Shown here: one piece after another, positions 2,990 to 64,000 of the stretch
How positions within the stretch are numbered: the first letter of the stretch is position 1
How the letters are laid out: each line of letters opens with the position of its first letter
Assembly: GCF_003574835.2 (NCBI RefSeq)
Contig: NZ_CP063196.1
Coordinates: 4,836,001-4,900,000 of the forward strand
Direction of reading: 5' to 3'
Length of the DNA: 64,000 nt
From: Thermobifida halotolerans
Lineage (GTDB): Bacteria > Actinomycetota > Actinomycetes > Streptosporangiales > Streptosporangiaceae
Notes under the pieces: model-generated
Told to the model about the DNA's origin: nothing
The model's database searches: none
Seen by the model: the letters and a program-made list of their open reading frames with translations, nothing else
Translations under genes and position numbers: made by a program

Positions 2990-3050
2990 GAGTTCCGCCC
3001 TCTCTTCAATCCACGTCATCCACATGGCGGAGCGTCGGCCGCGACGTCGG

Positions 3051-3458
3051 TCAGTAGTTCAGGTCCGGCGAGACCACTCCCTCCACCCAGGAGCCGGCCT
3101 GGGTGAGGAGCACGCCGAAGGAGATGACCATGACCAGGAGCATCACCGCGCCGGCGCCGAGGCAGTACCAGGAATACCTGGTCAGAGTTTCGGCCTGAGT
3201 GTAGAGCCCCTGGTCGCGTTTGTGTGCGGCGCGCACCGCGAAGACGATGCCGATGACCCCGAACAACCAGTTGGCGCAGCACAGGAAGGTGAGCGCGTGC
3301 AGGATGAGCGCCATCGTGGAGCTGCTCGACCCCGACGGACGGGGCCCTGTCCCGTCACCGGGGCGGTCCTCGTCCCGCTCGCCCGCGACCCGGCGGACCC
3401 GTGGCGGCGGCTCGTCGCGGGGGTCGGAGGCTCCGGGGGGCAGCGACGGGTTGCTCAT
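3051..3458 (-). CDS. Small CD225/dispanin-like membrane protein (tandem paralogue)
   Basis: 135 residues: an acidic, Pro/Arg-rich tail, then two hydrophobic helices. The first carries the LCCANW double-cysteine segment and GVIGIVFAVRAA, the loop is KRDQGLYTQAE, and a YSWYCLGAGAV helix follows. This is the CD225/dispanin plan (Cys pair, GIVF, A-x-K loop). Start: ATG 3458 has GAGG 11 bases upstream; ATG 3491 is in frame with GGGGAAG only 2 bases upstream and would add 11 residues, so the start is uncertain. Same orientation and architecture as the next gene, suggesting duplication or a pair that acts together. Confidence 0.75.
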   Translation of the reverse strand: MSNPSLPPGASDPRDEPPPRVRRVAGERDEDRPGDGTGPRPSGSSSSTMALILHALTFLCCANWLFGVIGIVFAVRAAHKRDQGLYTQAETLTRYSWYCLGAGAVMLLVMVISFGVLLTQAGSWVEGVVSPDLNY

Positions 3459-3559
3459 GGGGGAGAAACCTCGATTCCGTACACCGGACATGGCTTCCCC
3501 AATCTCATCAGAATCCACGGCGTGATGCCGAGTGGGCAGCCACCACGATCGTGTCGGGG

Positions 3560-6001: not shown

Positions 6002-6341
6002 CGTGGTTTCACGCTATGCCATCACCGCGCGGAGGCGCGCCGGACGGGTATTCCGACGCCGCACTCGGTCAACCCAGGGCAAACGATCCGGAATATCCCC
6101 GTCCGCCCGCGGTTCGCGGTCGCGGGGCGCCGACGTGGCGGATGATGATGGTCATGCGTCCCAACTCTGGCGCGCGGTGGCTCCGGTAGGTCCATCCCGG
6201 GAAGCGCCGCCGCCGGTGGACGACGGTGCGACGGCCGTCGGTGGAGCCCGTCACCGCAGTGGTCGTCGGCCGTGGCGGCACCCCGGAACCGCCGGGTCCC
6301 GTCCCACAACTCCGCAACCAGCGGTACGCGGGGGCCGCGTG

Positions 6342-6379
6342 CGAGAGGCCCGGAACACAACGGTTTTCCGGGCCTCTCG
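6342..6379. terminator. Orphan 13-base-pair perfect hairpin
   Basis: Arms 6342-6354 and 6367-6379 (CGAGAGGCCCGGA and its complement) are perfect, with a 12-base loop. It looks like an intrinsic terminator without a T tract, yet no gene ends here on either strand. It may end an unannotated small RNA or block antisense reading. Confidence 0.5.
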
Positions 6380-6471
6380 GCAGATCTGCACGGCATGACC
6401 GAAAGACAAGTCCCCTAATCGGTTACCAACCGAATTAGCTTGCTTTTGTTTGTTTCGGGGCAGTTATCCAG

Positions 6472-6500
6472 TGGCTGTCCCGGACGGGCACGGTTAGCCT
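6472..6500 (+). promoter_or_regulatory. Possible promoter of the cold-shock gene
   Basis: TAGCCT at 6495-6500 fits an actinobacterial -10; TGGCTG at 6472-6477 with a 17-base spacer is a poor -35. This would give a leader of about 110 bases, common for cold-shock genes, but the call rests on short motifs only. Confidence 0.3.
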
Positions 6501-6617
6501 GAAAGACCCGTCCGATGTTGGACGGGCGAGAGGGCGGCCGTACCGCACGGTCCTGGCGAGGGGCGGTACGAGCGCGGTCCTCCCGGTGTTTCGACGGCGA
6601 AAGCGAAGAGGTCACAC

Positions 6618-7001
6618 GTGCCCACTGGCAAGGTCAAGTGGTACGACGCGGGCAAGGGTTTCGGTTTCCTCACCAAAGACGACGGCGGCGAGGTCTTCCT
6701 GCATGCCTCGGCGCTTCCGCCCGGCACGACCACGCTCCGTCCCGGGCAGCGGGTCGAGTTCGGGATCGTGGAAGGGCGCAAGGGCGCTCAGGCGCTCCAG
6801 GTCAGACTGCTCGAGGCGCCCCGGTCGGTGGCCAAGGCGCTGCGCAAGAAGCCGGACGAGATGGTTGTCATCATCGAAGACCTGATCAAGCTGCTTGACG
6901 GTGTGTCCAACACCTACCGCAGGAACAAGCATCCCGACCGCCGCGAGGCGGCCAAGATCGCTCAGGTCCTGCGCGTGGTCGCCGACGACCTGGAACTCTG
7001 A
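6618..7001 (+). CDS. Cold-shock domain protein with C-terminal extension
   Basis: 127 residues. Residues 1-65 form a cold-shock domain with RNP1 KGFGF and RNP2 VFLHAS, binding single-stranded RNA or DNA in the cytoplasm as an RNA chaperone. The following 60 residues, basic then helical (RSVAKALRKKPDEM, NKHPDRREAAKIAQ), are longer than in CspA (about 70 residues total) and typical of a second actinobacterial type. GTG start with GAAGAGG about 9 bases upstream. A terminator-like hairpin follows directly, so it is probably monocistronic. Confidence 0.92.
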   Translation: MPTGKVKWYDAGKGFGFLTKDDGGEVFLHASALPPGTTTLRPGQRVEFGIVEGRKGAQALQVRLLEAPRSVAKALRKKPDEMVVIIEDLIKLLDGVSNTYRRNKHPDRREAAKIAQVLRVVADDLEL

Positions 7002-12929: not shown

Positions 12930-13036
12930 CCAGCCCTGTCCTCGGACGGGCCGGTGCGGAATGCCTCGCCTTCCCCCGGTTTCTCCGCGAAGACCCCCGC
13001 GCCCACCGCAGAACCCAGTACTCAAACCTCAGTGAG
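12930..13036 (-). repeat. Intergenic repeat family, copy A
   Basis: Read on the minus strand, this block (from about 13036 down to 12940) closely matches the first 95 bases of copy C at 61636: a CTGAGGT-TGAGT start, TTCTGCGGTGGGC, TCTTCGCGGAGAA, GGCGAGGCATTCC. It begins 25 bases after the methyltransferase stop, as copy C begins right after the kinase stop. The remainder of the 338-base gap (12723-12929) shows no gene. Confidence 0.75.
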
Positions 13037-50656: not shown

Positions 50657-50810
50657 AGTTCCCCAGTTGAGCACAGGATGTGCTCCCATTGCCACAGGAA
50701 TGGACTTTTCTGTGGATTAAAGTCAAAGGAATAGCGAAGAAGACTGGGTGTTGGCAGGGTGTACACCGAGAGCATAGAGCTGACCATGCTTCTGTCTCTC
50801 ACACGCAAGC

Positions 50811-50846
50811 GGCCCTGGCCCGGTGCTGGCACACCGAACCAGGGCC
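50811..50846 (+). promoter_or_regulatory. Nested hairpin in the leader of the peptide-ATPase operon
   Basis: Outer arms GGCCCTGG (50811-50818) and CCAGGGCC (50839-50846) are perfect and enclose CGGTG (50821-50825) and CACCG (50832-50836). It sits 36 bases before the 39-residue ORF and could be an attenuator or a dyad operator for the WhiJ-like regulator. Confidence 0.45.
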
Positions 50847-50881
50847 TTAGCTCCCAACCTGATCAACCCAGGTGGTGACTC

Positions 50882-51001
50882 ATGCGCAAGGCTACTGCCC
50901 CGCCCATGCCCGGATCGCGGCGAACGTCCCGCGTCCGGCCCTACGTCCTTCTCGCCCTGGCCGACCACATCGGCCCGTCCGGGCAGGCGGTGACCCGGTG
51001 A
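50882..51001 (+). CDS. Small basic peptide (39 residues) coupled to the ATP-binding protein
   Basis: ATG 50882 has GGTGG 6-7 bases upstream, and TGA 50999-51001 overlaps the GTG start of the next gene (GTGA). The peptide is rich in Arg, Pro and Ala (SRRTSRVRPYVLLALADHIG). Both the ribosome site and the stop-start overlap argue that it is translated. No family recognised; it could be a leader peptide or a genuine small partner. Confidence 0.55.
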   Translation: MRKATAPPMPGSRRTSRVRPYVLLALADHIGPSGQAVTR

Positions 51002-51432
51002 CCGTCGCCTTCACGTCCTTTCCCGGAATCCCGGACAGCGTGGCCGCCGCTCGTCGGTTCGTGGTCGGCGCGATCCGGTTGTGCCCCCGCTCCACCGCCC
51101 CCGACGAGGTGGTGGGCCGGGCCGAGTTGATCGTGTCCGAGCTGGCCACGAATGCGATCCGACACACTCGGTCCAGCGACCCCGGCGAGTCCTTCATGGT
51201 TCGGGTCCGTGTGGATGACCGGGGAGTGTGGGCCGAGGTGTGCACCCGGGAACCCCGCCTGTGGAACTCCGTTCCCCGCGTCGTCAAGTCCGACGACCCA
51301 TTCAGCGAGCACGGTCGCGGCCTGCTGCTGGTCGAACAGCTCGCCACCCGGTGGGGTCGCCTGGCCCCGTGGGAGGACGGCGTGTTCTTCCACCTCGCCT
51401 GGAACGACGGCCCGCCCGACCTCGCAGCCTGA
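50998..51432 (+). CDS. ATP-binding anti-sigma-like protein (AbaA/RsbW type)
   Basis: 144 residues, a single GHKL ATPase domain: N box SELATNAIRHT, VWAEVCTREPRLWN in the G1 region, and G2 EHGRGLLLVEQLATRWG. It is the third partner of the XRE-DUF397 type WhiJ locus, here divergent from the other two. Odd: the G1 strand lacks the usual Asp (EVCT instead of EV-D), so ATP binding may be altered. GTG 50998 is coupled to the peptide ORF; a strong terminator follows. Confidence 0.88.
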   Translation: MTVAFTSFPGIPDSVAAARRFVVGAIRLCPRSTAPDEVVGRAELIVSELATNAIRHTRSSDPGESFMVRVRVDDRGVWAEVCTREPRLWNSVPRVVKSDDPFSEHGRGLLLVEQLATRWGRLAPWEDGVFFHLAWNDGPPDLAA

Positions 51433-51464: not shown

Positions 51465-51581
51465 GCACTTTCCAGCCCCTCCCGCGCTGGTGGGGTGGTG
51501 AAGGCTGCCGCGCCTCGCGGCCGAAGCGCGTCCCGCACCCGCCCGGCCCGTCCCAGCCCCTCGACCCACGGAAAGCCCGCC

Positions 51582-51890
51582 TTGACCGCGACCGCACCGC
51601 ACCGGCCCCGGATGCGCCCGCCGCGCCCCTGGGTGCCCGGCGACCAGCCCGAAACCGTCCTGCCCGCCTGGATGTACGCCCGCCGGGAACCCCGCTTCCC
51701 GCACCTGGTCATCCACCCGGCCGAGCCCCGCCCCGGCCGGGACCACCGTCCCGCGTCCCTCCGGCCCCGGCGACCGCACCGCACCGGCTCCCGGCCGCAC
51801 ACCGCCTTGGCCGTGCTGATCGCCGCGGCGCTGGTTCTCGGCGCAGCCCTCCACGGCTGCGTCTCCCTCACCGCGGCCTGCTCCCTGTGA
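51582..51890 (+). CDS. Basic Pro/Arg-rich protein with C-terminal membrane helix
   Basis: 102 residues from TTG 51582, which has GGAAAG 6 bases upstream. About 70 residues rich in Arg, Pro and His (RRPHRTGSRPHT near the end) lead to one hydrophobic helix (about 78-98, ALAVLIAAALVLGAALHGCV) and end at CSL. No family recognised. Base composition is extreme GC, which favours spurious frames, so confidence is limited by that. Confidence 0.5.
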   Translation: MTATAPHRPRMRPPRPWVPGDQPETVLPAWMYARREPRFPHLVIHPAEPRPGRDHRPASLRPRRPHRTGSRPHTALAVLIAAALVLGAALHGCVSLTAACSL

Positions 51891-51993
51891 ACCCTCCACG
51901 AGATCGACACCAGGGACCTATTTCCCGCGTTTTTCGGCCTCTGGTGCCGATCCAGACGCTCCCCGTCCGCTCCGACCCCCGGGAAAGCCAGCC

Positions 51994-52506
51994 GTGTCCC
52001 AGCAGTCCGCTCCGCTGATCACCTCCACCGCGATCGAGGCCGCCATTACCGCCCGGGAACTCGACCCCGCCCACCCGGTGCTGCCCGAGCGGTTCTGGAC
52101 CCGTCCCGACGTGGCCGACGCCGTGGCGCGCCTCGACGTCACCGCCCTCATCCGCCGGATGCGCGCCCTGACCCCCATCACCCAGGACCAGATTGCCCGG
52201 CTGACCGGCCTCACCCAGTCCACGATCTCGCGCATCGAGACCGGCCGCAGCCGACTGCGCGACCTCGCCCGCGTCAGAACAGTCCTGACCGCCCTCGGCG
52301 CCCCCGAACTCCCGAAACGGCGCAGACCCAACCGGCTGACCGACTACACCATCCGCGCCGTCATCGCCGACACCCCCGAAGGGCAGACCGTCGTCCTGCA
52401 CGCCTCCGCCCAGGACGTTGCCGAAGTCTTCATCTACACCGAAGACACCGAAACCGCCCCGCTGCCGCCCCAACCCACCCACCCGGTGTGGCCCCCGCCC
52501 AGGTGA
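51994..52506 (+). CDS. XRE-type helix-turn-helix regulator
   Basis: 170 residues with an XRE domain in the middle (about 45-95): TPITQDQIARLTGLTQSTISRIETGRSRLRDLAR. The N-terminal 45 residues and the C-terminal RAVIADTPEGQTVVLHASAQDVAEVFIY are not a known effector domain. GTG 51994 follows GGGAAAG by about 6 bases. It may regulate the defence island, but its target is unknown. Confidence 0.82.
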   Translation: MSQQSAPLITSTAIEAAITARELDPAHPVLPERFWTRPDVADAVARLDVTALIRRMRALTPITQDQIARLTGLTQSTISRIETGRSRLRDLARVRTVLTALGAPELPKRRRPNRLTDYTIRAVIADTPEGQTVVLHASAQDVAEVFIYTEDTETAPLPPQPTHPVWPPPR

Positions 52507-52589
52507 TGACAGTCGGCCCCGCCCAGCCGGGTGACGGACCTGGCAGGTCAGCAGTCCGTGGCGGAGGTGACCGGTTAGCGGCTCTCACA

Positions 52590-52826
52590 CCGAGTCCGGC
52601 CCACCCGTCCGCGCCTCAGGACGCTGCCCCACTGGGGTGGCTGGTGTTCTTTTGGCTGGTCTGTCTGTGGGGCGCGCCTGGGCTCGGCGCTGGGGGCGCC
52701 TCGACCAGTCGCGGCCAGCCCGTGGTGGCTCGTCCCGGACGGCTGGGGTGGAATGCCGTGCCTTTCCCAGGGGCTCCGCGAAGACTCCCGCGTCCATCGC
52801 AGAAGCGAACACCCACACTCAGTCAG
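52590..52826 (-). repeat. Intergenic repeat family, copy B; rest of the gap is gene-free
   Basis: Minus-strand reading from about 52826 matches copy C over about 230 bases, including CTGACTGAG, GTTCGCTTCTGCG, TCTTCGCGGAG, GGCATTCCACCCC, GGGCTGGCCG, GGTCGAGGCGC and the inner CCAGCCACCCCAG-GGGGCAGC block. The repeat fills much of the gap between 52507 and 53128. Bases 52827-53110 carry no gene. Confidence 0.8.
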
Positions 52827-53128
52827 ACAGTATTCGGACACGCGCGAACTCGGTGCCGTCGGAATCCTTTTCCTCTGAGAATCCTCATGGCCAACAGGGC
52901 CACCGGTCCTGCGACCGCTCAATCTCCTCCTGGCCATCTCCAGTGTTCACGAACAGGAATTCAACTGGTCGGTCCGGGGCCTACCGCCTCTCCTGCCGAG
53001 GAAGCCCCGAGTCCCAGCGAAATCCGAATGTGAAAAATCAGCCCTCTTTTTCAGGAGTGCGCTACTGGGTTGCGGTGAGGTTCCCGAAAAAGGATGAAAG
53101 CAGTATTTCCGGCGACTACGGTTGGAGC

Positions 53129-55261
53129 ATGCCCGAGATCACTCCGCTGCCCGTGCTGCGAGTCCGCAACTTCCTGCTGCGCGAGTACCAGGAACTCATC
53201 GATCTCAGTAACCTCCGAAAGGGCTGCTCCGAACACGAACGGAACCAGAACCTCCTGTCTCGGGCACTGGCCGCCCTCACCATTCGCCACCTGAGCGGAT
53301 GTAGTAAGGAGCAGGCAGCCGCCGCCGTCATCGACGGGGACAAGGACCAGGGGATCGACGCGCTCCGGGTGGACAGCGACGCCCAGGACCAGCCTCGCCT
53401 CCTCCTCGTGCAGAGCAAATGGAGTGACAAGGGCAGAGGCTCATTCGATCAGAACGATGCGCGTACCCTGAACGACGGACTCAGGTACCTGACCAACACC
53501 GAGTACGAACAGTTCAACGACCGCTTCCGACTCTTCGTCAACCAGGTGCACCGGGCCATCATGACACCGGGAGCGCGCATCGTTCTGGTGGTCACCGTGA
53601 TGCGGGAGGCCCCCCTCGACCCCACGGTGCTCGGCAAGCTGGAGAAGCTGTGCCAGGACCTCGGTGGTGAGGAGACCGTCCATCTCAGGGTCCTGTACTT
53701 GAGAGACATCGAGGCGATGGTCCGCGAAGAACTCGCGGGACCGGTGGTCAACCTGGATACCCGCCTGGAGACGTGGGCGCCGCACGCCAGCCCGTACCAG
53801 GCGTTCCACGGCACCGTCCGGGCAGCCGAGATCGCCGACTGGTACAAGAAGGAGGGCGAGAGGCTCTTCCGGAGCAACATCCGCCAGTCACTCGGCATCA
53901 CCCCGGTCAACCAGGAGATCACCGACACCCTGCTCACCAACCCGAGCCACTTCTTCTACCTCAACAACGGCATCACCGTCCTGTGCGAACGGATCGTCAA
54001 GGGGGTGCGCAGCTCCATGGAGGTGGGGGGCAGCGGAGACTTCGAGCTGACCGGGGTGAGCATCGTCAACGGCGCGCAGACCGTCGCCGCGATCGCCCGT
54101 GCCATGGAACAGGACCCCCAGCAGACCGCACGGGCCTACGTCGGGATCAAGCTGATCTCCCTGGAAGGCTGCCCACCGGACTTCGCGGAACTGGTCACGC
54201 AGGGCACGAACACGCAGAACGAGGTGAAACCGCAGGACTTCGTCGCCCTGGACCCGCTCCAGCGCGGCCTGCGCGACGACTTCTACACCCTTCTCGACAA
54301 GACCTACGTCATCAAACGCGGGGAGATGGCGCCGCCCCCGGGCGAAGGCTGCACCGTGATCGAGGCCGCGCAGGCGCTGGCCTGCGCACAGCCCAAAGCC
54401 GAATTGGTCGCCCGGATCAAGAAGAACCCCGACCTGCTCTGGGACGAGCATCAGGGCGTCTACGCCGCGCTCTTCGGCAAGGGCAGGAGAGCGGTTCAGG
54501 CGATGCGGGTGTGGAGCGACGTGCTCCTCCTCCGCACGATCAAGGAGCAGCTCGGCAGAGAACGGGCGAAGCGCGAGGGCAGGGCACAGGCCGTCGCGGA
54601 ACGGGGAGACCTGCTCACCGCGCACGTCATCTTCCAGTGGCTGGCCTCCGAACGTTCCACCGACTCCGACCGGGAGCACGACTGGCACACCGTCATCGAG
54701 GACCTGCCCAAACTGGTCACGACCGTGCTCGACTGGCTGACCCACCACGTCGACGCGGAGTTCACCAAGAACAGCTTCATCCAGAGCACCTTCACCAGCC
54801 CCGAACGCTGCTCCCTCCTCACCGAACGCGTCCTGGCGAGCCTGCACGACGGCGGTGAGATCCCCGAACTCCCCGACACCTACCGGCCGCCCGCGAAAAC
54901 CGGCAAACGCAGGCCGAAAGCCGTGGCCACCCTCCTCGACAGCGGACGCATCCCATCGGGAACCTCCCTGGTGTTCCAGGCCCAGACCGGCCCCGAACGC
55001 CGCACACTCGCCGCGTGGCTGCAACAGGACGCCCGGCGCGGCCGAGCGGTCTGGAACAGCGGCAGCCGGTCCAAACCCCTGATCTGGGAGGCCGACGGGA
55101 AACGCTACTCACCCAGCGGACTGGTCCAGCACATGCTCGACCTGGCCAGCAGGGAACGCAAGGACCGGCCGCTCCAGGGAACCACCCGCTGGTTCGTTCC
55201 CGGTGAGGGCTCCCTCGCCGACCTGGCCGAGCAGGTGCGTCGCGAGGACGAGGAGAACTGA
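53129..55261 (+). CDS. AIPR abortive-infection protein with PD-(D/E)xK-like N-terminus and RAMA-like tail
   Basis: 710 residues. Residues about 30-120 look like a restriction-type nuclease fold: D77 in QGIDALRVD and Gln95-Ser-Lys97 in VQSKW. The AIPR domain (about 230-470) has FFYLNNGITVLCERI and GVSIVNGAQTVAAI. The C-terminus (about 596-691) resembles RAMA, the restriction-enzyme and methylase-associated domain: LLDSGRIPSGTSLVF, WEADGKRYSPSGLVQHML. A phage-defence nuclease is likely. ATG 53129 is 6 bases after TACGGT (53117-53122), so leaderless. In the defence island between hsdS and hsdR. Confidence 0.82.
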   Translation: MPEITPLPVLRVRNFLLREYQELIDLSNLRKGCSEHERNQNLLSRALAALTIRHLSGCSKEQAAAAVIDGDKDQGIDALRVDSDAQDQPRLLLVQSKWSDKGRGSFDQNDARTLNDGLRYLTNTEYEQFNDRFRLFVNQVHRAIMTPGARIVLVVTVMREAPLDPTVLGKLEKLCQDLGGEETVHLRVLYLRDIEAMVREELAGPVVNLDTRLETWAPHASPYQAFHGTVRAAEIADWYKKEGERLFRSNIRQSLGITPVNQEITDTLLTNPSHFFYLNNGITVLCERIVKGVRSSMEVGGSGDFELTGVSIVNGAQTVAAIARAMEQDPQQTARAYVGIKLISLEGCPPDFAELVTQGTNTQNEVKPQDFVALDPLQRGLRDDFYTLLDKTYVIKRGEMAPPPGEGCTVIEAAQALACAQPKAELVARIKKNPDLLWDEHQGVYAALFGKGRRAVQAMRVWSDVLLLRTIKEQLGRERAKREGRAQAVAERGDLLTAHVIFQWLASERSTDSDREHDWHTVIEDLPKLVTTVLDWLTHHVDAEFTKNSFIQSTFTSPERCSLLTERVLASLHDGGEIPELPDTYRPPAKTGKRRPKAVATLLDSGRIPSGTSLVFQAQTGPERRTLAAWLQQDARRGRAVWNSGSRSKPLIWEADGKRYSPSGLVQHMLDLASRERKDRPLQGTTRWFVPGEGSLADLAEQVRREDEEN

Positions 55262-55287
55262 CCGCCTCGGCGCCGCGTTTTGCGCAG

Positions 55288-56664
55288 TCAGGATGCGTCT
55301 CGGTGGGCGGACCCCCTGCGGCGGTCGAACGTGGTCTCCCGTGACCCGTGCTTCCTAGCACGGTTGTCGTCCTCCCCGCCGTCACGCACCGCCGCGTCGA
55401 ACTGGCTGTCGACGACCTCGGGGACTGCGCCGTAGCGCCCGGTCAGGTACCACAGCATCGGGTTCTCGTCGCTACCCTCTTCCTCCTCGTACTCGGCCAG
55501 GGAGAAGAGTTGGGTCGCCCCGTGCTGGTCCTTCTCGGTGAACCAGATCTCCTCGCGCCCGAGCACGTCCCTGCCGCGAATCCACCCCAGCAGTGCGGCG
55601 TCGTGGCTGGAGAACAGGAGTTGCGCGCGCCGGGGGTTGGTCTCCGGGTCTTTGAAAAGCTCAATGATCTTGGTCGACAGCAGGGGATGCAGGTTGGCGT
55701 CCAGTACGTCGACGACCATGAGGGACCCCGTGCGCAGAGCGGAGATGACCTGGTATCCCAGGTTTAACAGGGCGATCGTGCCCTGCGACTGCTGCCGGAT
55801 GCCGAGAGGCCGGACGCTGCTGTCCGCCGAACGGTGGTGGAAGAGCAGATCCACCCGGTCGAGCGTCCGGATTCGATGGCGGCGAAGAACCTCCGGAGCG
55901 TCGGCGTACCGCTCCTCCACCTCGGCGATCTCGCTCTCGGTGGGGCGGTGTCGTTTGAGTTCCAGGCGCTCGATTCCGGTGTCGGCCGCACGCAGCAGTT
56001 CCTCCAGCTTCGGAAGCCACCGTTCATCCGTGCTGCGAAGCCGACGCAGCAGCAGTTGCGCCCCATGCCATAGTCCGGGGTCGGTGGAGCGAAACCTGAG
56101 GCGCTGCGCGAACCAGTCGTACACCGGTCGGACGACGTGCTGTTTGGAACGGGCCGCCACCGTCAGGAAGAGGGTGTTGTCGTCGGTGATCTCCTCGACC
56201 TGGGTCACCGAGTCGGGAAGATCCGGCCCGAAGCGGTAGCCGTCCGCGTCGCGTTCGAAGACGACCTGCTTCCCGTCCAGGGGATAGCAGTACAGCCACT
56301 CCTCGACCACCCGCACGTCGTCGATCGCGAAGCCGTAGGTGTAGCGCAGGCCGTTGGTCCACAGGTCCACGACGTAGCTGGACGGTTCCGCCAGACTTCG
56401 CGAATCCAGGGTGAAGGGGTCCCGCTCGATTCCGGCGTCCGGCTCGTGGTCGGCCATCGACGTGCGCACCATGTGCTGCATGAACCCCAGCGCGTTCAGG
56501 ACGTTGCTCTTGCCGGAGGCGTTCGAGCCGAAGATCCCTGCCACCCGCAGTGACTCGGGCTCCACCGGGTCGGGGCCTTCGGGCGCATCCTGCGCGGGGA
56601 CCAGCAGGAGTTGCTGCTCCTCCTTCAGGGATCGGTGGTTGGCGGCCCGGAAACTCAGCAGCAT
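55288..56664 (-). CDS. AAA15-family ATPase (RloA/OLD-like)
   Basis: 458 residues, an ABC/SMC-type ATPase: Walker A GSNASGKSN with Lys52, IRQQSQGTIALLNLGYQ as the ABC signature, VVDVLDANLHPLLS as Walker B, and a final SSHDAAL H-loop. This is the COG1106 type, typical of phage exclusion or Rlo-style accessory genes at hsd loci; its usual partner RloB is not next to it. ATG 56664 is chosen with GGGG about 9 bases upstream; ATG 56673 is also possible. Convergent with the AIPR gene and divergent from hsdR. Confidence 0.85.
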   Translation of the reverse strand: MLLSFRAANHRSLKEEQQLLLVPAQDAPEGPDPVEPESLRVAGIFGSNASGKSNVLNALGFMQHMVRTSMADHEPDAGIERDPFTLDSRSLAEPSSYVVDLWTNGLRYTYGFAIDDVRVVEEWLYCYPLDGKQVVFERDADGYRFGPDLPDSVTQVEEITDDNTLFLTVAARSKQHVVRPVYDWFAQRLRFRSTDPGLWHGAQLLLRRLRSTDERWLPKLEELLRAADTGIERLELKRHRPTESEIAEVEERYADAPEVLRRHRIRTLDRVDLLFHHRSADSSVRPLGIRQQSQGTIALLNLGYQVISALRTGSLMVVDVLDANLHPLLSTKIIELFKDPETNPRRAQLLFSSHDAALLGWIRGRDVLGREEIWFTEKDQHGATQLFSLAEYEEEEGSDENPMLWYLTGRYGAVPEVVDSQFDAAVRDGGEDDNRARKHGSRETTFDRRRGSAHRDAS

Positions 56665-56969
56665 GTGCCGCATCCCCTTCCCAGTCCGCTCCCGCCGTCG
56701 ACATCCGACCGTGAGGATTCGGAACTCGGCGTAGTCACGGTGACCGGATGGTTTTTGTTCCTTTTCGCGCTTTCTCAAATTTTCTCGAATTGAGAACCGT
56801 ACCGACAGCCTATAGATCACCTTTGGCGGCCCGGCTCCCGGCTCGCGCGGACGAACTGCCAGCTCCCCGCCCAAGGTCCTCGGACTGCGGGAAATCCCGC
56901 CCGGCCCGACCGTGCGATTGGCCATACTGGAGAGGACCCCAGCAGCGCCACGCCCCCGGGAGCCGCCCC
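56665..56969. other. Divergent control region between the ATPase and hsdR
   Basis: 305 bases. It is relatively AT-rich near 56745-56795 (TTTTTGTTCC, TTTCTCAAATTTTC) and carries no gene of its own. Promoters for both genes should lie here, but no clear box can be named. Confidence 0.5.
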
Positions 56970-59900
56970 GTGAGTCACGCCCCCGCCTACTTCGAATCCG
57001 CCTTCGAAAACACGATCGTTGCGGAGCTGGTGAAACACAGCGGCTGGCGGGCCGTGCCCGAGGACGGCGGCTACGACCCCGAGCGCGCCATCGACACCAC
57101 GCGGCTCTTCGAGTTCCTCGGCCGACCCTCCCAACGCGACCAGGTCGAGCGGCTCACCGACCGCTACGGCGGAGTCGAGGAGTTCCAGAGAGGCTTCCTG
57201 CGCAGACTCACCGACCAGCTCGACCGGTACGGCACCCTGCACGTGCTGCGCAACGGGGTCAGGGACCAGGGAGTGGAGATCGCACTCGCCCACTTCAAAC
57301 CCGAAGGGGCCGAAGCCGTCGACGCCCTGGCGCACTACGAGGAGAACATCCTCAGCGTCACCCCGCAACTCCACTACTCCACCCGCAACCGCAACTCCCT
57401 CGACCTGGTGTTCTTCGTCAACGGGCTGCCGGTGGCCACCGCCGAGCTGAAGAACCCGCCGACCGGGCAGACCGTCGCCCACGCCATGCGCCAGTACCGC
57501 GACGACCGCGACCCCCGCGAGACGCTGTTCGCGGGCCGCGCGCTCGTGCACTTCGCCGTGGACACCGACGAGGTGTACACGACCACCCGGCTGGCCCGCC
57601 GCGACACCGTGTTCCTGCCCTTCAACCAGGGCTCCAACGGCCCCAACGCGCCCGGAGGCAAGGGCAACCGCAGGGCCGTCCCCAAACGGGAGGGCGGCTA
57701 CCCCACCGCCTACCTGTGGCGCGAGGTGCTGCGGCGGGACAACTTCATGGAGATCCTGGAGCGCTTCCTCGCGGAGAAGAAGACCGACCGCGGCACAGAA
57801 CTGATCTTCCCCCGCTACCACCAGTGGCACGCCGTGCGCACCCTCGCCGACCACGTCCAACGCCACGGCAGCGGCGAGAAGTACCTCGTCCAGCACTCCG
57901 CGGGCTCCGGCAAGTCCAACACCATCGCCTGGCTCGCGCTGCGCCTGCTCGACCTGCACACCCTCGCCGACCCCCGGAAACTGGAAGGACGCGCCCGCGA
58001 ACTCGGCCCCGCCACGCCCGTCTTCGACAAGATCCTCGTCGTCACCGACCGGACCGTCCTGGACGACCAGCTCAGGAAGACCGTGGAGGGCTTCGTACGC
58101 ACCCCCGGCGCCTTCAGGGCCATCACCGGTGAGGGCGGCAGCAAGTCCGCCGAGCTGGCGGCGGCACTCAAGGACTCCACCACCCGGGTCCTCACCGTCA
58201 CCGTGCAGACCTTCCCCTACGCGCTCAAACTCCTCCAGGATCTGCCCGAGAAGCGGTGCGCGATCCTGGCCGACGAGGCGCACTCCTCGCAGAGCGGCGA
58301 CACCTCGGACCAGTTGCGCAGGGCGCTGGACGCCATGGAACGGAACGCGGCCGACGACCGAGCTGAAGACGACGGAGTGCCCGAAGCCGCCGAGCAGCTC
58401 GGCGAGCGCGACCACCCCAACCTGTCCTTCTTCGCCTTCACCGCCACCCCCAAGACCAAAACCCTCAACCTGTTCGGGGTCAGACGCGACGACGGCACGC
58501 GCGGCCCCTTCCACCTGTACTCGATGCGGCAGGCCATCGAAGAGGGCTTCATCCTCGACGTGCTCGGCCGCTACATCACCTACGACCGCAGCTTCCGACT
58601 GGTCAACGAAGCCGTGTTCGACGACGACCCCGAAGTCGACAAGAAGCGGGCCAAGGCCGCGCTGATGCGGATGGTAGACCTCAGCGACACCCGCATCACC
58701 GAACTCGCCGACCTGATCGTCCGACACTTCCACCGCTACATCGCCCCGCAGATGGGCGGACGCTCCAAAGCCATGGTCGTCACCGGCGGCCGGGAGCACG
58801 CGGTGCGGCTGCACCGCGCCATCGAACGCCGCCGCAAGCGGCTGGGGTGGGACGACTGCCGCGCGCTCGTCGCGTTCTCCGGTTCGCTCAACCTCGACGG
58901 AGAAGACCTCACCGAGGCGGGAATCAACGGGTTCGGGGAGAAGCAGTTGCCCGCACGGTTCGGCTACACCAGGGCCGACGACCCCCACGCCGTCACCAAC
59001 CAGCAGGACGAGTACCGCATCCTCGTCGTCGCCGACAAGTACCAGACCGGCTTCGACCAGCCGTTGCTCACCGCGATGTACGTGGACAAGCGGCTCGGCG
59101 GCGTGCAGGCGGTGCAGACGCTGTCGCGCCTCAACCGCACCCACCCCCTCAAGGACGCCAACGACCTGTTCGTCCTGGACTTCCGCAACACCGCCGACGA
59201 GATCACCGCCGCGTTCCAGGACTACTACACCACCACGCTCGCCGACGAGACCGACCCGAACGCCCTCTACGACAAGCACACCGAACTCCTGGGCTTCGGT
59301 GTCCTCGACCGCGACGAGATCGCCGAGTTCGACCGCTGCTGCCTGCCCGGCGAGGACACGCCCCCGCACCAGGACATGATTCGGCTGACCGGGCCGGCGC
59401 TGCACCGCTACGAGGAACTGCTCGACTCCGACCCCAAAAACGCCGAGGCGTTCCGCGGCGGCCTCGACGGCTACCAGCGCGCCTACGGGTTCCTGCAACT
59501 TCTCGCTCGATGGGTGCGACAGGACGAGGAGTTGCGCGGTCTCTACCGTTTCGGCAAGGTGCTGCTCAAACGGCTGCCGCGTCGCCCCGAAGAACGCGGG
59601 GTGGACCTGTCCGGGACCGAGGTCGCCGAGTACCGCGCCTACAAGACCTCCGAGAGCGCACTGAAACTCGACGGAGACCAGTCCAGCCGCCTCGGCGGGA
59701 CTACCGTCGGTGAGAGCGCCCCTGCCGGTGAGGCCACCGTCGAGACCGGACGGCTTTCCGACATCATCGACGAGATCAACGAACGCTTCGGGGTCGGCCT
59801 GCGCGCCGAACACCTCGACGACCCCATCGCCGAGGTGGGCGAGCGCAGCCCGCATCTGAAACGGGCGGCGGGCAAGGCCACCCCCGAGGAGTTCCGGCGC

Positions 59901-60059
59901 CTGTTCGTCGAGGAGTTCCGCCCCGACTTCCTGAAGAAGGTCCGCAACCCCGAGGACATCGAACTCTTCCGCGCCTACAACGACAACCGGGACCTGCGCG
60001 ACGTCATCGACTCCGAAGCGGCCCGGCGGGCGCAGAAGGACTGGGGAACGGCCGCCTGA
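56970..60059 (+). CDS. hsdR: Type I restriction endonuclease subunit HsdR
   Basis: 1029 residues. N-terminal PD-(D/E)xK nuclease: Asp145 in NSLDLVFF, Glu159 and Lys161 in ATAELKNP. SF2 translocase: Walker A SAGSGKSN with Lys315, DEAH at 435-438 (ADEAHSSQSG), FTATP, and the C-terminal VADKYQTGFDQP, QTLSRLNR. A helical C-terminal domain follows. With HsdM and HsdS it cuts unmethylated DNA far from its site. GTG 56970 has GGGAG 8 bases upstream. Unusually, hsdR is 7.4 kb from hsdS with unrelated genes between, and the STK gene follows 43 bases later. Confidence 0.95.
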   Translation: MSHAPAYFESAFENTIVAELVKHSGWRAVPEDGGYDPERAIDTTRLFEFLGRPSQRDQVERLTDRYGGVEEFQRGFLRRLTDQLDRYGTLHVLRNGVRDQGVEIALAHFKPEGAEAVDALAHYEENILSVTPQLHYSTRNRNSLDLVFFVNGLPVATAELKNPPTGQTVAHAMRQYRDDRDPRETLFAGRALVHFAVDTDEVYTTTRLARRDTVFLPFNQGSNGPNAPGGKGNRRAVPKREGGYPTAYLWREVLRRDNFMEILERFLAEKKTDRGTELIFPRYHQWHAVRTLADHVQRHGSGEKYLVQHSAGSGKSNTIAWLALRLLDLHTLADPRKLEGRARELGPATPVFDKILVVTDRTVLDDQLRKTVEGFVRTPGAFRAITGEGGSKSAELAAALKDSTTRVLTVTVQTFPYALKLLQDLPEKRCAILADEAHSSQSGDTSDQLRRALDAMERNAADDRAEDDGVPEAAEQLGERDHPNLSFFAFTATPKTKTLNLFGVRRDDGTRGPFHLYSMRQAIEEGFILDVLGRYITYDRSFRLVNEAVFDDDPEVDKKRAKAALMRMVDLSDTRITELADLIVRHFHRYIAPQMGGRSKAMVVTGGREHAVRLHRAIERRRKRLGWDDCRALVAFSGSLNLDGEDLTEAGINGFGEKQLPARFGYTRADDPHAVTNQQDEYRILVVADKYQTGFDQPLLTAMYVDKRLGGVQAVQTLSRLNRTHPLKDANDLFVLDFRNTADEITAAFQDYYTTTLADETDPNALYDKHTELLGFGVLDRDEIAEFDRCCLPGEDTPPHQDMIRLTGPALHRYEELLDSDPKNAEAFRGGLDGYQRAYGFLQLLARWVRQDEELRGLYRFGKVLLKRLPRRPEERGVDLSGTEVAEYRAYKTSESALKLDGDQSSRLGGTTVGESAPAGEATVETGRLSDIIDEINERFGVGLRAEHLDDPIAEVGERSPHLKRAAGKATPEEFRRLFVEEFRPDFLKKVRNPEDIELFRAYNDNRDLRDVIDSEAARRAQKDWGTAA

Positions 60060-60102
60060 CCAGTATCCCCAACGACACCGGCACAGAAACGGAGCCGTGC
60101 GC

Positions 60103-61635
60103 GTGACCGACGGGCGCGTCATCGCTGACAGGTACGAACTCACGGTGCCCCTCGGCCGAGGCGGCATGGGCCAGGTATGGGAGGCCTACGACCGCCGCCT
60201 CGACCGCAGGGTCGCGGTCAAACTGCTCAACCGTGACCTCCTCTCCGACTCCGGAGACGGCGACGAGGTCGGTGAGAAGCGGTTCCGCCGCGAGAGCCAG
60301 GCCACGGCCCGGGTCGAGCACCCCGGTGTGCCCGCCGTCTACGACGTGGGCTCCCACGAGGACACGCTGTACCTGGCGATGCAGTTCGTCGAGGGGCACC
60401 TGCTGGGCGACGTGATCGCCGAGGAGGCGCCTCTGCCCGTGTCGTGGGCGGCGGCGATCGCGGCGCAGCTCGCGTCCATCCTGTCCGCCGCGCACGAGCG
60501 CGCACTCGTCCACCGCGACCTCAAGCCGTCCAACGTCATCCTGTGTCCCGACGGCTCGGTCAAACTGTTGGACTTCGGCATCGCCGCCGTACTCGACGCC
60601 AAGACCCGGCTGACGCGGGGCGCGACCCCCGGCACGCCGCTGTACATGGCCCCCGAACAGATCGAGGACCGGCCCGCGACCCCGCGCAGCGACCTGTACG
60701 CGCTGGGCTGCCTACTCCACGAACTGCTGACCGGGGAGCCGCCCTTCACCGGGACGCTGCCCTCGGTCACCTACCAGCACGTCCACACCGCGCCCGAACC
60801 ACTGGACGCGCTCCGTGACGACGTTCCCGAAGCACTCACCGGCCTGGTGGCCGAACTGCTGGCCAAACGGCCCGAAGACCGCCCGGCCGACGCGCGCGAG
60901 GTGTACGGACGGCTGGTTCCGCTGCTGCCCGCCCCCAGTGGTACGACCGAACCCGGAGGGTACGACCCGACACGGCCCTACCGGGAGCCGATGGCGCCGC
61001 CTCCGGTGCGAACCGCACCCCGCCAGCGCGACGGCGCCGTGCGCTCACGTCCCCGAGGCGACTCCCGGGAACGGATCGACGTGGCGGCGCTACGGGCCGA
61101 AGCGGAACGGCTCCGGGCCGCCGAACGCTACACGCAGGCCGGTGACGTCCTCGACCGGCTGCTCGACGGCGCGGACGACCTCCCCGAGAACGAGCGGCTG
61201 GGGCTGATGTGGCGGCGGGCCGGGTTGGCGATGAGCGCGCGGGACCACCGCGACGCGCTGCGACGCTACCGGGCGCTGCTGCCTCGGGCGGTCGACCACT
61301 TCGGGGAGGGCAGCGAACCGGTCGTCGACTGCCGCCGCCAGATCGTGGACTGCCTCGCTTTGCTCGGGCAGTTCACCGACGCCGCCGACGAACTGCGGAC
61401 CCTCTACCGGGACCACTACGCGGCCCAGCCGTACGACCGGGAAGCACTGGAGGTCGGCAGGCGCATCGGCGCCATCCTCGCGGCGGCGCGCCACCACGAG
61501 CAGGCCGAGCGGTGGCTGCGCGGCCAGGCCGACCGGGCGGCCGAGGCGTTGGGGCTCGACGACAACCTCAGCAGGGGAATCATCGCCGACTGGATACGGG
61601 TCCGGGACGCGTTGGAGGAAACACCACGCGACTGA
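60103..61635 (+). CDS. Soluble Hanks-type Ser/Thr protein kinase with C-terminal TPR-like region
   Basis: 510 residues. Kinase domain 1-270: glycine loop LGRGGMGQVWEA, Lys40 in VAVKLL, catalytic HRD at 137-139 (VHRDLKPSN), DFG at 157-159, APEQ. A Pro/Arg-rich linker (about 285-330) leads to helical repeats (about 330-505, TPR-like with LRAAERYTQAGDVLDRLL and RDALRRYRALLPRA). No transmembrane helix, unlike PknB-type kinases, so it is cytosolic. Start: GTG 60103 has GGAG 8 bases upstream, better than GTG 60097. Position after hsdR suggests a phage-defence or regulatory role, as with other island kinases. Confidence 0.88.
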   Translation: MTDGRVIADRYELTVPLGRGGMGQVWEAYDRRLDRRVAVKLLNRDLLSDSGDGDEVGEKRFRRESQATARVEHPGVPAVYDVGSHEDTLYLAMQFVEGHLLGDVIAEEAPLPVSWAAAIAAQLASILSAAHERALVHRDLKPSNVILCPDGSVKLLDFGIAAVLDAKTRLTRGATPGTPLYMAPEQIEDRPATPRSDLYALGCLLHELLTGEPPFTGTLPSVTYQHVHTAPEPLDALRDDVPEALTGLVAELLAKRPEDRPADAREVYGRLVPLLPAPSGTTEPGGYDPTRPYREPMAPPPVRTAPRQRDGAVRSRPRGDSRERIDVAALRAEAERLRAAERYTQAGDVLDRLLDGADDLPENERLGLMWRRAGLAMSARDHRDALRRYRALLPRAVDHFGEGSEPVVDCRRQIVDCLALLGQFTDAADELRTLYRDHYAAQPYDREALEVGRRIGAILAAARHHEQAERWLRGQADRAAEALGLDDNLSRGIIADWIRVRDALEETPRD

Positions 61636-61975
61636 CTGAGGTATGAGTGTTCGCTTCTGCGGTGGGCACGGGGTCTTCGCGGAGAACCCGGAGAAAGGCG
61701 AGGCATTCCACCCCGGCCGTCCAGGGGGGTACCACGGGCTGGCCGTGCCTGGTCGAGGCGCTCTGGCGCCGAGTCCGGGCGCGCCCTGCGGGCGGATCGG
61801 CCGAAAGAACGCCGGCCACCCCAGGGGGCAGCACCCTGGGGGGCGGGATTGTCGTCGAAGGTGCGGGTGGGCGAGCCGTGTCCGGACTCGGCGTCGGGGC
61901 GCCTCGACCGGCCACTGGCAGTCGGTGGTGGCCCGCTTCTGGAGGTTTTTTGTGGAATACCTCACCTCGCCAGGA
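61636..61975 (+). repeat. Intergenic repeat family, copy C: large imperfect palindrome
   Basis: Begins at the kinase stop with CTGAGGT-TGAGTGTTCGCTTC. Arm 1 (61702-61778, GGCATTCC to GAGTCCGG) and arm 2 (61882-61961) are inverted copies of each other, about 77-80 bases each, including GGTCGAGGCG and GCGCCGAGTCCGG. The centre holds smaller hairpins (CCACCCCAG with GGGGCAGC). The structure fits a palindromic non-autonomous element. Bases 61976-62160 show nothing recognisable. Confidence 0.75.
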
Positions 61976-62161
61976 ATGGCGGTGCAACCGTATTCGCCGC
62001 GGAATCCGACCATCAAACCTCGATGAGTTTCAGCATCCATGCCCCAGGCTCCTCAGGATCAATTCCGCCCACCAGCGGTCACTCCAGACAACTTGTGTCA
62101 CTTGGTGCCGCGAATTCAACACCGGATCCGGTAAATCGTGCTGGTCGTATTTTGTGGTGTA

Positions 62162-62190
62162 TTGACAATGCTTGTCGGCGTTGGAAGACT
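62162..62190 (+). promoter_or_regulatory. Promoter of the peptide operon
   Basis: TTGACA (62162-62167) is a perfect -35; AAGACT (62185-62190) 17 bases later is a modest -10. It predicts a leader of about 45 bases ahead of the peptide start at 62244. Confidence 0.5.
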
Positions 62191-62243
62191 CCGGGTGGGC
62201 GATCAGAATATTTCATGCCCAGTCGTGCCCCAGGGAGCCAACC

Positions 62244-62405
62244 ATGGATACCGTGACAATCACGGCCGCAGGACAAGAGTCCGTTATCGACATTCCCCTG
62301 CCCACCGAAGCCTGGCACGAGACCGTGGACGAGTCGGTCCAGTTCGAAGTGCAGCAGGCGTCCCTCGCTGAAGGCCACTTCGGAACCAACTTCCGTCGCT
62401 GCTGA
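62244..62405 (+). CDS. Candidate RiPP precursor peptide, 53 residues
   Basis: ATG 62244 has AGGGAG 7 bases upstream. The peptide has a leader-like acidic and hydrophobic part (TVTITAAGQESVIDIPLP), a TEAWHETVDES middle, a QFEVQQASLAEG segment, and a short C-terminal HFGTNFRRC. A single Cys at the very end and aromatic Phe residues flanking Asn are possible modification sites. No known precursor family was recognised; the call depends on the next genes, a 2-oxoglutarate/iron enzyme and a radical SAM enzyme. A longer frame from 62172 is less likely, lacking a ribosome site of this quality. Confidence 0.6.
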   Translation: MDTVTITAAGQESVIDIPLPTEAWHETVDESVQFEVQQASLAEGHFGTNFRRC

Positions 62406-62419
62406 TCGCTGAGGGCGGC

Positions 62420-62457
62420 GGACGGTGCCTCGCAAAGCGAGGTGTCGTACGCCGTCC
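62420..62457 (+). terminator. Nested hairpin after the precursor, possible partial terminator
   Basis: Inner arms CCTCGC (62428-62433) and GCGAGG (62437-62442) with loop AAA, inside outer GGACGG (62420-62425) and CCGTCC (62452-62457). RiPP operons often have such a stem to make more precursor than enzymes. Confidence 0.55.
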
Positions 62458-62502
62458 TAGGCATGGAACCGGCTTCATCGGTGCCAATGGGTCCGACCCG
62501 AC

Positions 62503-63312
62503 ATGCGGGGAGCGATGGGATTAGCGGGTGACGTAAGTTTTGTGCTGGCCAAGGCGAAGCAGGCCAGGCGCCGACGAATATCACCAGGACTGACGGAGGA
62601 CAAGCATGTCCTCAAGATGCTTCTCCGTGATGGCATCGTGGTCATTCCACAGTTTTTGGATATCGAGACCGTGCGCGCCATCGCAGAAGAGACGCACAGC
62701 AGTACGGATCTGCTGGCCGATGCCCTACACCCAGACATTGTGAAGCGGAACGCGCGGCGGTTGCTTCTCAATCCGCGCAAACATGTCCCCAGTTCGGTGC
62801 GGGTATTCGACGACGGGCGGATCCGGAACCTAGCGAGAGCGTACCTTTCGCCCGAAGCGGTGCCCGACAGGGAGGCAGTCCAGGTCAAGAAGGGAGTCGG
62901 AGAGCAGAGTATTGTCGATTTTTACCACATCGACGAGTGGCGTCCGCTGCTCTCCGTCTTCTTTTACCTGACGGACGTCGGCTCCGATAACGCCCCGATG
63001 GAATACCTTGTCGGCAGTCACCGTGGGGCTCTGTGGAGAGCCCGACTCGAACAGGACTTTTTTGAGTACTACCGCAAGGATGCTCAGGGCCGATACGCCA
63101 ATGAGGAGAGCGCGTATGCTGGCTGCATACTTCCGACACAGGCGAGGCGCCTTCGTGAGCGCTATAAATGGCGATCGATGTCCTGCGAGGGCGCGGCGGG
63201 CACCCTGGTCATCTTCGACAACCTCGGTCTGCATAGAGCCCGGCCGCTGAAGGCTGGCACACGACTGCTGCTGTCGGCGTACTGGCAGTTGCCGGACGGA
63301 GATATGGAGTGA
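62503..63312 (+). CDS. Phytanoyl-CoA dioxygenase (PhyH) family 2-oxoglutarate/iron enzyme
   Basis: 269 residues. The PhyH jelly roll: DGIVVIPQFLD at the start of the domain, facial triad H142-x-D144 in FYHIDEW and distal His244 in LGLHRARPL, then an Arg-containing TRLLLSAYWQL strand binding 2-oxoglutarate; also FFYLTDVGSDNAPMEYLVGSHRG. It should hydroxylate a peptide or small substrate. Start uncertain: ATG 62503 has no ribosome site; ATG 62515 has GGGGAG only 2 bases upstream. Lies between the candidate precursor and the radical SAM gene, so peptide tailoring is inferred. Confidence 0.85.
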   Translation: MRGAMGLAGDVSFVLAKAKQARRRRISPGLTEDKHVLKMLLRDGIVVIPQFLDIETVRAIAEETHSSTDLLADALHPDIVKRNARRLLLNPRKHVPSSVRVFDDGRIRNLARAYLSPEAVPDREAVQVKKGVGEQSIVDFYHIDEWRPLLSVFFYLTDVGSDNAPMEYLVGSHRGALWRARLEQDFFEYYRKDAQGRYANEESAYAGCILPTQARRLRERYKWRSMSCEGAAGTLVIFDNLGLHRARPLKAGTRLLLSAYWQLPDGDME

Positions 63313-63403
63313 ACGGGCCGGATGGCTTGGACATTCCCAATGACGGCCAGTGACGTGAGCAGCGTGCTGGCGTAGATGCAGCGCCCGACAGGAGCGGACT
63401 GAC

Positions 63404-64000
63404 ATGGGGACCACCGAATCTCACGACTCGGACGGACAACTCCGGCAGAAGCTGATCAACCGGATCACTCGCCGAGCATGGCTCGACAAGGATTTCCGGC
63501 AGCTTCTCATCGATGATCCGCAGGCGGCAGTGCTGACAGAGTTTGGCGAGATTCCCGCCTTGATCCGAGGTTTCACGGTCCGCCCCGCGCCGGTCGATCG
63601 GGCAGCCCTGCGCCCCTTGGAAGGACGTCGGACTCTGCGTATCAAGCCGAAGCCCGGCGGTCGCCCGATTAGCGTCGTGCTGCGCCACTTCCTTGGTGAC
63701 CAGGAGCTGATCGTTGTCCTCTACACTCGGCGGTGCGCCTTCAGTTGCTCCTTCTGCACCCTGCCGTCAGCCGGGGCGATCACGGACGTGAAGACGGAGG
63801 AGATAGCGGCCCAGTTTGGAGCAGTGAACGACTTCGTCCGGGCGAAGGCGAAAGGCGACGTCACACGGGTCGCCCTCGGCAATGAGGGTTCCATACTCGA
63901 CGAACGCACCCTCCCCGTGGACCAGTTGCACATGGTGATGGCTGCGGCGCGCAGCCTGCCCGGAGTCCGGGAGATCGTCCTGGAGACCAGACCTGAATTC
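63404..64000 (+). CDS. Radical SAM enzyme with NHLP-like N-terminus, C-terminus outside window
   Basis: 199 residues visible; open at the edge. Iron-sulphur motif C111-x3-C115-x2-C118 (RRCAFSCSFC) binds the 4Fe-4S cluster, followed by LGNEGSILDERTLP, which recalls Elp3/archaeosine-type radical SAM enzymes. The first 60 residues read RRAWLDKDFRQLLIDDPQAA then TEFGEIPALIRGF and resemble nitrile-hydratase-like leader peptides (NHLP) of RiPPs, unusual as part of an enzyme. ATG 63404 has AGGAG 9 bases upstream. Peptide modification is likely from context; the reaction is unknown. Confidence 0.85.
   Translation, partial: MGTTESHDSDGQLRQKLINRITRRAWLDKDFRQLLIDDPQAAVLTEFGEIPALIRGFTVRPAPVDRAALRPLEGRRTLRIKPKPGGRPISVVLRHFLGDQELIVVLYTRRCAFSCSFCTLPSAGAITDVKTEEIAAQFGAVNDFVRAKAKGDVTRVALGNEGSILDERTLPVDQLHMVMAAARSLPGVREIVLETRPEF

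Follow-up and report, generated by a model that had tools for sequence, protein, structure and literature searches.

What is encoded by the short peptide gene and the redox enzyme genes at the end of a 64-kb stretch of Thermobifida halotolerans DNA, and what would their product act on? The whole stretch of 64,000 nucleotides is here called the window, and the candidate locus occupies positions 4898162-4900000 of contig C1 in a genome of 5.5 Mb and two contigs (G000). The original prediction described a peptide, a hairpin, a PhyH-type oxygenase and a radical SAM enzyme running past the window edge, and this observation was confirmed as a whole. After 33 kb of downstream sequence were added (L013; window position = 61000 + L013 position), the operon was indeed seen to continue (Table 1). 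The reading developed below, to which we assign a probability of about 0.42, is that of a new azol(in)e-type RiPP family targeting arginyl-tRNA synthetase (ArgRS), with a divergent argS gene as the immune copy of the target.

Layout of the operon and its candidate precursor

The genes follow one another on one strand in the order 53-aa peptide, PhyH, NHLP-fused radical SAM enzyme, Asp/Asn-hydroxylase-like oxygenase, TruD-like YcaO and sulfotransferase, and the genes from the radical SAM enzyme to the sulfotransferase overlap or sit 4 bases apart. Beyond the sulfotransferase gene, on the opposite strand and convergent with the operon, is the divergent argS. Catalytic motifs are intact in both oxygenases, in the radical SAM enzyme and, by what we take to be its motif, in the sulfotransferase. 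The promoter originally claimed holds in part: a TTGACA is present at 62162, but this part of the claim is weak because a consensus scan of 61600-62600 reports no promoter. Upstream of the operon, an intergenic repeat of ~290 bp with 61-nt imperfect inverted arms is found at 61635-61915. Similar stretches at 52609-52826, at 12940-13033 and, beyond the window in the same numbering, at 89296-89584 are 80-85% identical to it over 94-293 bp.

Table 1. Features of the candidate RiPP locus and its surroundings, in window numbering.
Feature	Position	Strand	Basis or remark
Left part of non-syntenic block: HTH, AIPR/AbiU-like, AbiLi-like AAA, HsdR-like and kinase genes	51788-61635		
Possible promoter, TTGACA, 17 nt, AAGACT (weak -10)	62162-62190	+	by eye
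Ribosome-binding region CCCCAGGGAGC	62228-62238	+	11 bases
53-aa candidate RiPP precursor	62244-62405	+	ATG, RBS, codon score
Nested hairpin in precursor/enzyme gap, possible attenuator or processing site	62408-62462	+	folding
PhyH-type 2-oxoglutarate/Fe oxygenase	62503-63312	+	PF05721, motif residues
NHLP-fused radical SAM enzyme, 400 aa	63404-64606 (L013 2404-3606)	+	crosses window end at 64000
Asp/Asn hydroxylase family protein, 198 aa	64603-65199	+	PF05118, E 7.4e-11
YcaO, 657 aa	65204-67177	+	PF02624, E 3.2e-39
Sulfotransferase, 288 aa	67132-67998	+	PF13469, E 6.1e-13
Divergent argS, 681-aa product	68174-70219	-	

The peptide (MDTVTITAAGQESVIDIPLPTEAWHETVDESVQFEVQQASLAEGHFGTNFRRC) ends in EGHFGTNFRRC, its single Cys being the last residue, directly after Arg-Arg. 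Its open reading frame, the AGGGAG closely 5′ of its ATG and its coding character agree with the predicted gene and its good ribosome site. The codon score, from a model built on ten neighbouring genes, is 0.349, the best among its six frames and a value reached by none of 31 false-frame open reading frames of 40-80 aa (highest 0.071). As predicted, the peptide belongs to no family that we could match, protein family models including those for NHLP giving nothing up to E 10. A homologous peptide upstream of related PhyH/radical SAM pairs, which the original prediction proposed to look for, was not found in the sets searched. The window itself is the one clear match among 60 genomes, the ten others (E 0.27-0.94) falling in open frames of 137-1685 aa; plasmids gave none, and the genome that carries the related cluster described below had no match at E 10, although a negative from so short a query carries little weight.

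The nested hairpin predicted after the peptide agrees with folding against shuffles: the stretch 62400-62502 folds at -52.7 kcal/mol (z -3.1), and only 1 of 200 shuffles is equally stable. Rfam gave no match to it at E 0.1. Two other possible precursors in the operon gaps, the overlapping frames 61950-62165 and 61952-62026 with a ribosome-binding site on the operon strand, were considered and are not favoured. The 53-aa peptide is likely the precursor of the pathway.

Maturation enzymes and a related cluster

The PhyH-type enzyme (PF05721, E 7.9e-10) has H142-x-D144 and H244, the intact H-x-D...H originally read from it. The radical SAM enzyme has the cluster motif C111xxxC115xxC118, and the predicted NHLP fusion is borne out by matches to TIGR03793 (E 2.3e-5) and PF14407 (E 2.8e-4), both under the curated cut-offs, and by an AlphaFold model with three helices at residues 9-47 (pLDDT about 73-76), a disordered linker at 57-81 and a barrel from residue 90. 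No NHLP structure appears in the Foldseek match list of the whole model, and the NHLP leader of known structure (8tb1) matches by sequence at E 0.76 only. The core belongs to a RaSEA/Elp3-like branch, the best Foldseek matches being Elp3 structures. The likeness to the RaSEA archaeosine synthase subunit lies in a TIGR01210 match (E 8e-21) at 74.6 bits against a cut-off of 212.15, and the enzyme differs from RaSEA and Elp3-like proteins by its operon of RiPP-type enzymes and its extra N-terminal module.

The YcaO resembles TruD (E 4.4e-19), LynD and MusD. It aligns with TruD and LynD over the CWxCL region and the catalytic YcaO domain, and its Glu/Arg motifs are conserved among 17 aligned YcaOs, in an alignment that took in 15 of the 28 matches from other genomes and that of the related cluster. 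By homology to TruD and LynD, it is therefore predicted to be of the azoline-forming kind. The C-terminal PxPxP motif typical of many cyclodehydratases is absent, the protein ending in GRGELPW. TruD-like enzymes carry a leader-binding domain in their N-terminal part; residues 1-44 of our YcaO are modelled as strands and then a helix at a pLDDT of about 50-60, in a model that is poor overall (53.5). Across 297 genomes of the family, the YcaO has 28 matches in other genomes and the hydroxylase has 13, and no other relative of the operon was found in the flanks (~1.5 kb) of either set.

A related cluster is found in a Pseudonocardiaceae MAG (locus L070, genome G1094), in which genes for the NHLP-fused radical SAM enzyme, hydroxylase, YcaO and sulfotransferase stand in the identical order. 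The radical SAM enzyme is 48%, the hydroxylase 42% and the sulfotransferase 44% identical to ours, and the NHLP segment is retained. The YcaO frame is broken there, with a start at ~9811 and a change near 10,200 by eye; the longer of its two pieces is 27% identical to ours over 525 columns (E 3e-30), and the first matches no Pfam family. Our PhyH has no match in L070 and therefore lies outside the shared core, a point of difference from the original prediction. No peptide resembling ours was found upstream of the L070 radical SAM gene. On the 3′ side of the L070 sulfotransferase gene is TTGACG-17-TAGCGT, which we take to be an actinobacterial promoter pattern, followed by CCCCAGGGAGCGATCATG. 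Here the 11 bases CCCCAGGGAGC recur before an ATG; the 64-kb window has one copy of them and L070 has two, and an alignment of the short stretches around them (E 0.15) is suggestive only. This could possibly be a precursor start, unreadable as the contig runs into its end repeat within about two codons. At 7718-7767 of L070, a short reading ending in MILAADRYELHYELPRD resembles a Ser/Thr kinase N-terminus by eye and may be chance; the window has a whole Ser/Thr kinase gene (60097-61635) on the upstream side of the operon.

The NHLP segment is confined, among the radical SAM relatives fetched, to our enzyme and that of L070. A scan of genome contigs with a radical SAM alignment confirmed 16 loci from 144 pattern matches; in 14 of the 15 others the match begins at residue 82 or later, and in L080, where it begins at 31, the sequence 5′ of the start codon is not NHLP-like by eye. 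An earlier contig scan with an incomplete query found no relative among 172 pattern matches. The radical SAM alignment A5 excludes L082, whose sequence has unknown residues. Among 396 genomes of the phylum, the enzyme's own copy was the only match at E 1e-20; 392 genomes of the genus of G057 gave four at E 1e-8, matching from residue 85 or later, and 249 genomes of the family of G1094 gave the L070 copy and two without the NHLP part. Plasmids yielded two partial matches (26-27%), and searches of phage and viral contigs found nothing.

By eye, the NHLP-less relatives sit in NRPS-type clusters, those of L066, L071, L074, L076, L067 and L080 being in NRPS/carbamoyltransferase-type clusters or adjoining an alcohol dehydrogenase, and the chemistry of the radical SAM enzyme therefore need not act on a peptide. 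L066, L071, L074 and L076 share a recurring cluster (also by eye) in which an NHLP-less enzyme of the same branch is accompanied by some or all of an IPNS-like oxygenase, a deaminase-like gene, a carbamoyltransferase and NRPS genes, and which looks like a small-molecule pathway. L067 holds, on the minus strand at 2663-6634, a small peptide gene (MNLNHEESAQ...ALLQDGADN) followed by a cobalamin-type radical SAM enzyme and a JmjC-like protein, as judged by eye. The peptide has no NCBIfam match, and the locus is a candidate for a separate RiPP pathway near a related radical SAM enzyme.

A divergent ArgRS gene in place of the ordinary one

The argS gene that faces the operon is, we think, the main clue to its function. 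Its product scores 250.6 on TIGR00456 (cut-off 261.65), and its identity with two ordinary actinobacterial ArgRS is about 28.5-29%. The HAGH signature and the Asn, Tyr and Asp of the arginine site, to which we presume the same roles as in other ArgRS, align with yeast ArgRS, and the divergent enzyme should therefore be active, as far as its residues tell. A PF00750 search of eight genomes returned from T. halotolerans two pieces of one gene, the divergent argS alone. In G1094 there are two ArgRS, an ordinary one and a second that shares 48% identity with ours over 443 columns. This second enzyme and ours are each 28-30% identical to ordinary ArgRS, and a tree with a long-branch warning and two odd rows groups them apart from nine other ArgRS (support 100/100). 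Both cluster-bearing genomes thus have a divergent ArgRS (2/2); of the other six, five (G001, G002, G003, G009 and G015) show one ordinary ArgRS each and one (G004) shows none, and the cluster's hydroxylase has no match in any of these six.

In G1094, the divergent argS lies on contig C16 and breaks off at codon 442, at a repeat that also ends contig C17, which carries L070. A search of that assembly for the C-terminal part returned not this part but the ordinary ArgRS and a match at E 0.23. Joining the two contigs was rejected, the ends sharing about 144 bp in reverse-complemented orientation. The shared end had by eye been taken for that of an IS, a guess that did not hold up, as Pfam recognizes no transposase in the 39 residues read from it. 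Physical linkage of cluster and argS is therefore seen in T. halotolerans alone, and the ArgRS link rests on two genomes.

The ordinary argS of a genome of the same genus (G002) lies at the same syntenic spot as the divergent argS. The two genomes are 89% identical in DNA from just beyond argS rightwards; on the left they match at 50803-51406 and 51577-51787 (79-82%), the former stretch also matching elsewhere in T. halotolerans, more weakly. None of the 20 DNA matches between the genomes covers the argS of G002. From the flanking matches, a stretch of ~4.7 kb with argS in G002 thus corresponds to 18.8 kb in T. halotolerans (51788 to about 70613), a block that holds defence-type genes, the RiPP operon and the divergent argS. 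In this strain, the divergent argS stands where the ordinary one is found in the relative. The AIPR/AbiU-like, AbiLi-like AAA, HsdR-like and Ser/Thr kinase genes form, together with the RiPP operon and argS, a block that is missing at the same place in the same-genus genome. That the argS swap belongs to a larger island, which also holds defence-type genes, counts against reading ArgRS as the target.

A proposed pathway and its alternatives

A compact RiPP pathway is very probably encoded here, because a TruD/LynD-like YcaO, a third oxygenase and a sulfotransferase lie downstream and the core is retained in a second genome. The pathway originally proposed is to this extent upheld and the downstream extension did bring further maturases, but PhyH is not in the shared core, a peptide homologue was not found, and neither a transporter (or other exporter) nor a protease was recognized in the 18.8-kb block. 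No azoline oxidase was recognized in the block either, and these gaps count against the reading with ArgRS as target. So do, for the YcaO, the absent PxPxP motif, the poor model and the low identity and broken frame of its L070 counterpart.

We propose that the peptide would be made in excess, with the hairpin after it damping read-through into the enzyme genes. The TruD-like YcaO would bind the leader and form an azoline from the C-terminal Cys (or from a Ser/Thr). The NHLP-like module might dock the radical SAM enzyme on the YcaO or on a complex that includes both, a guess based on a published NHLP leader whose first helix, along with an L(X)4L motif, mediates binding to a YcaO RRE (Wakeel et al., PMC12455567). 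The radical SAM enzyme would alter a core residue, perhaps an Arg, and, to judge by enzyme class, the hydroxylase, plus PhyH in T. halotolerans, would hydroxylate side chains, one of which the sulfotransferase may sulfate. The finished Arg-rich C-terminal fragment (around FRRC) would inhibit ArgRS, and the linked divergent ArgRS, which sits where relatives have the ordinary argS, would be the insensitive copy.

Biosynthetic clusters can carry a resistant copy of their target, and because of this the linkage suggests by analogy that the peptide product poisons ArgRS; that the Arg-Arg end fits an ArgRS inhibitor is suggestive only. Whether the divergent ArgRS is the immunity factor we regard as nearly an even call, leaning slightly against. 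Alternatively, the RiPP operon could be real and the argS swap incidental, the island occupying a hot spot in which a foreign argS restored a displaced essential gene and the product having another target. The AIPR, AbiLi-like, HsdR-like and kinase genes of the 18.8-kb block, with their look of a defence island, fit such an origin, but a related unusual ArgRS in the only other genome found to bear the cluster, beside an ordinary ArgRS that makes it unnecessary, does not, and we hold this explanation to be doubtful while taking it seriously.

It is improbable that the locus is not a RiPP pathway at all and that the enzymes make or modify a small molecule or some other protein, with the peptide regulatory or unrelated. 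Such a role would suit the small-molecule setting of the NHLP-less radical SAM branch in several actinobacteria and the failure to find peptide homologues; however, the TruD-like YcaO and the NHLP-like segment are hallmarks of RiPPs, and the peptide gene, whose codon use is that of coding DNA, opens the operon and has a strong hairpin behind it. That argS is linked to the cluster and that the peptide ends with Arg-Arg before its Cys would also fit a biosynthetic ArgRS, supplying Arg-tRNA to an aminoacyl-tRNA-dependent step. We consider this very improbable: no aminoacyl-tRNA-using enzyme was recognized in the operon, and if the gene is the sole copy, as the PF00750 search indicates, it must serve all translation in T. 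halotolerans.

The locus stands apart from the systems that it most resembles. The cyanobactin-type TruD/LynD/MusD heterocyclases share the homology and Glu/Arg motifs of our YcaO, whose partners are instead the NHLP-fused radical SAM enzyme, hydroxylase and sulfotransferase; ours has no recognized oxidase or PxPxP tail, its peptide has a single Cys at the extreme C-terminus, and the class was rejected for want of a PatA/PatG-type protease and macrocyclase among the operon and five upstream genes. Proteusins and other NHLP RiPPs share the link between an NHLP-type segment and a YcaO, but here the segment is on a maturase and not on the precursor, which matches no NHLP model, and for want of an NHLP leader on the precursor that class was rejected as well. 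YcaO-TfuA thioamide RiPPs also combine a YcaO with other tailoring enzymes; a mycobacterial YcaO-TfuA cluster is usually located close to a sulfotransferase (PMC6511847), and the std cluster (PMC13174530) was compared as well. Ours has no recognized TfuA, MNIO or carbamoyltransferase, and the class was rejected as no TfuA was found among the operon genes.

Antibiotic clusters with a resistant aminoacyl-tRNA synthetase are a known kind. Microcin C, itself a RiPP, acts on AspRS (PMC7136475). Like these, our locus joins an atypical synthetase to a biosynthetic cluster; it differs in that the enzyme is an ArgRS, the copy replaces the ordinary gene in this strain and resistance is putative. Self-resistance by an alternative target is foreshadowed in T. 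halotolerans by the linkage between the cluster and an essential gene of atypical type, with ArgRS as the putative target. No ArgRS inhibitor from a gene cluster and no cluster-linked ArgRS was found among the open-access PMC matches listed, one of which gives the enzyme's name once, and the matching passages of two reviews name no such natural product, only hemin for a malaria ArgRS.

The full picture, which we put forward tentatively, is of an Arg-rich, azoline-bearing, hydroxylated and sulfated ArgRS inhibitor, made with a perhaps leader-mimicking NHLP module that docks in trans on the YcaO, and of an island that puts an insensitive ArgRS in the place of the single one on which the host relies. 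If true, the target of an uncharacterized RiPP would have been named from genome data alone, that target being ArgRS, and a leader fold would have moved from precursor to enzyme. Self-resistance would come from swapping, not duplicating, an essential gene, and, the sole ArgRS having been replaced, loss of the island would kill the host.
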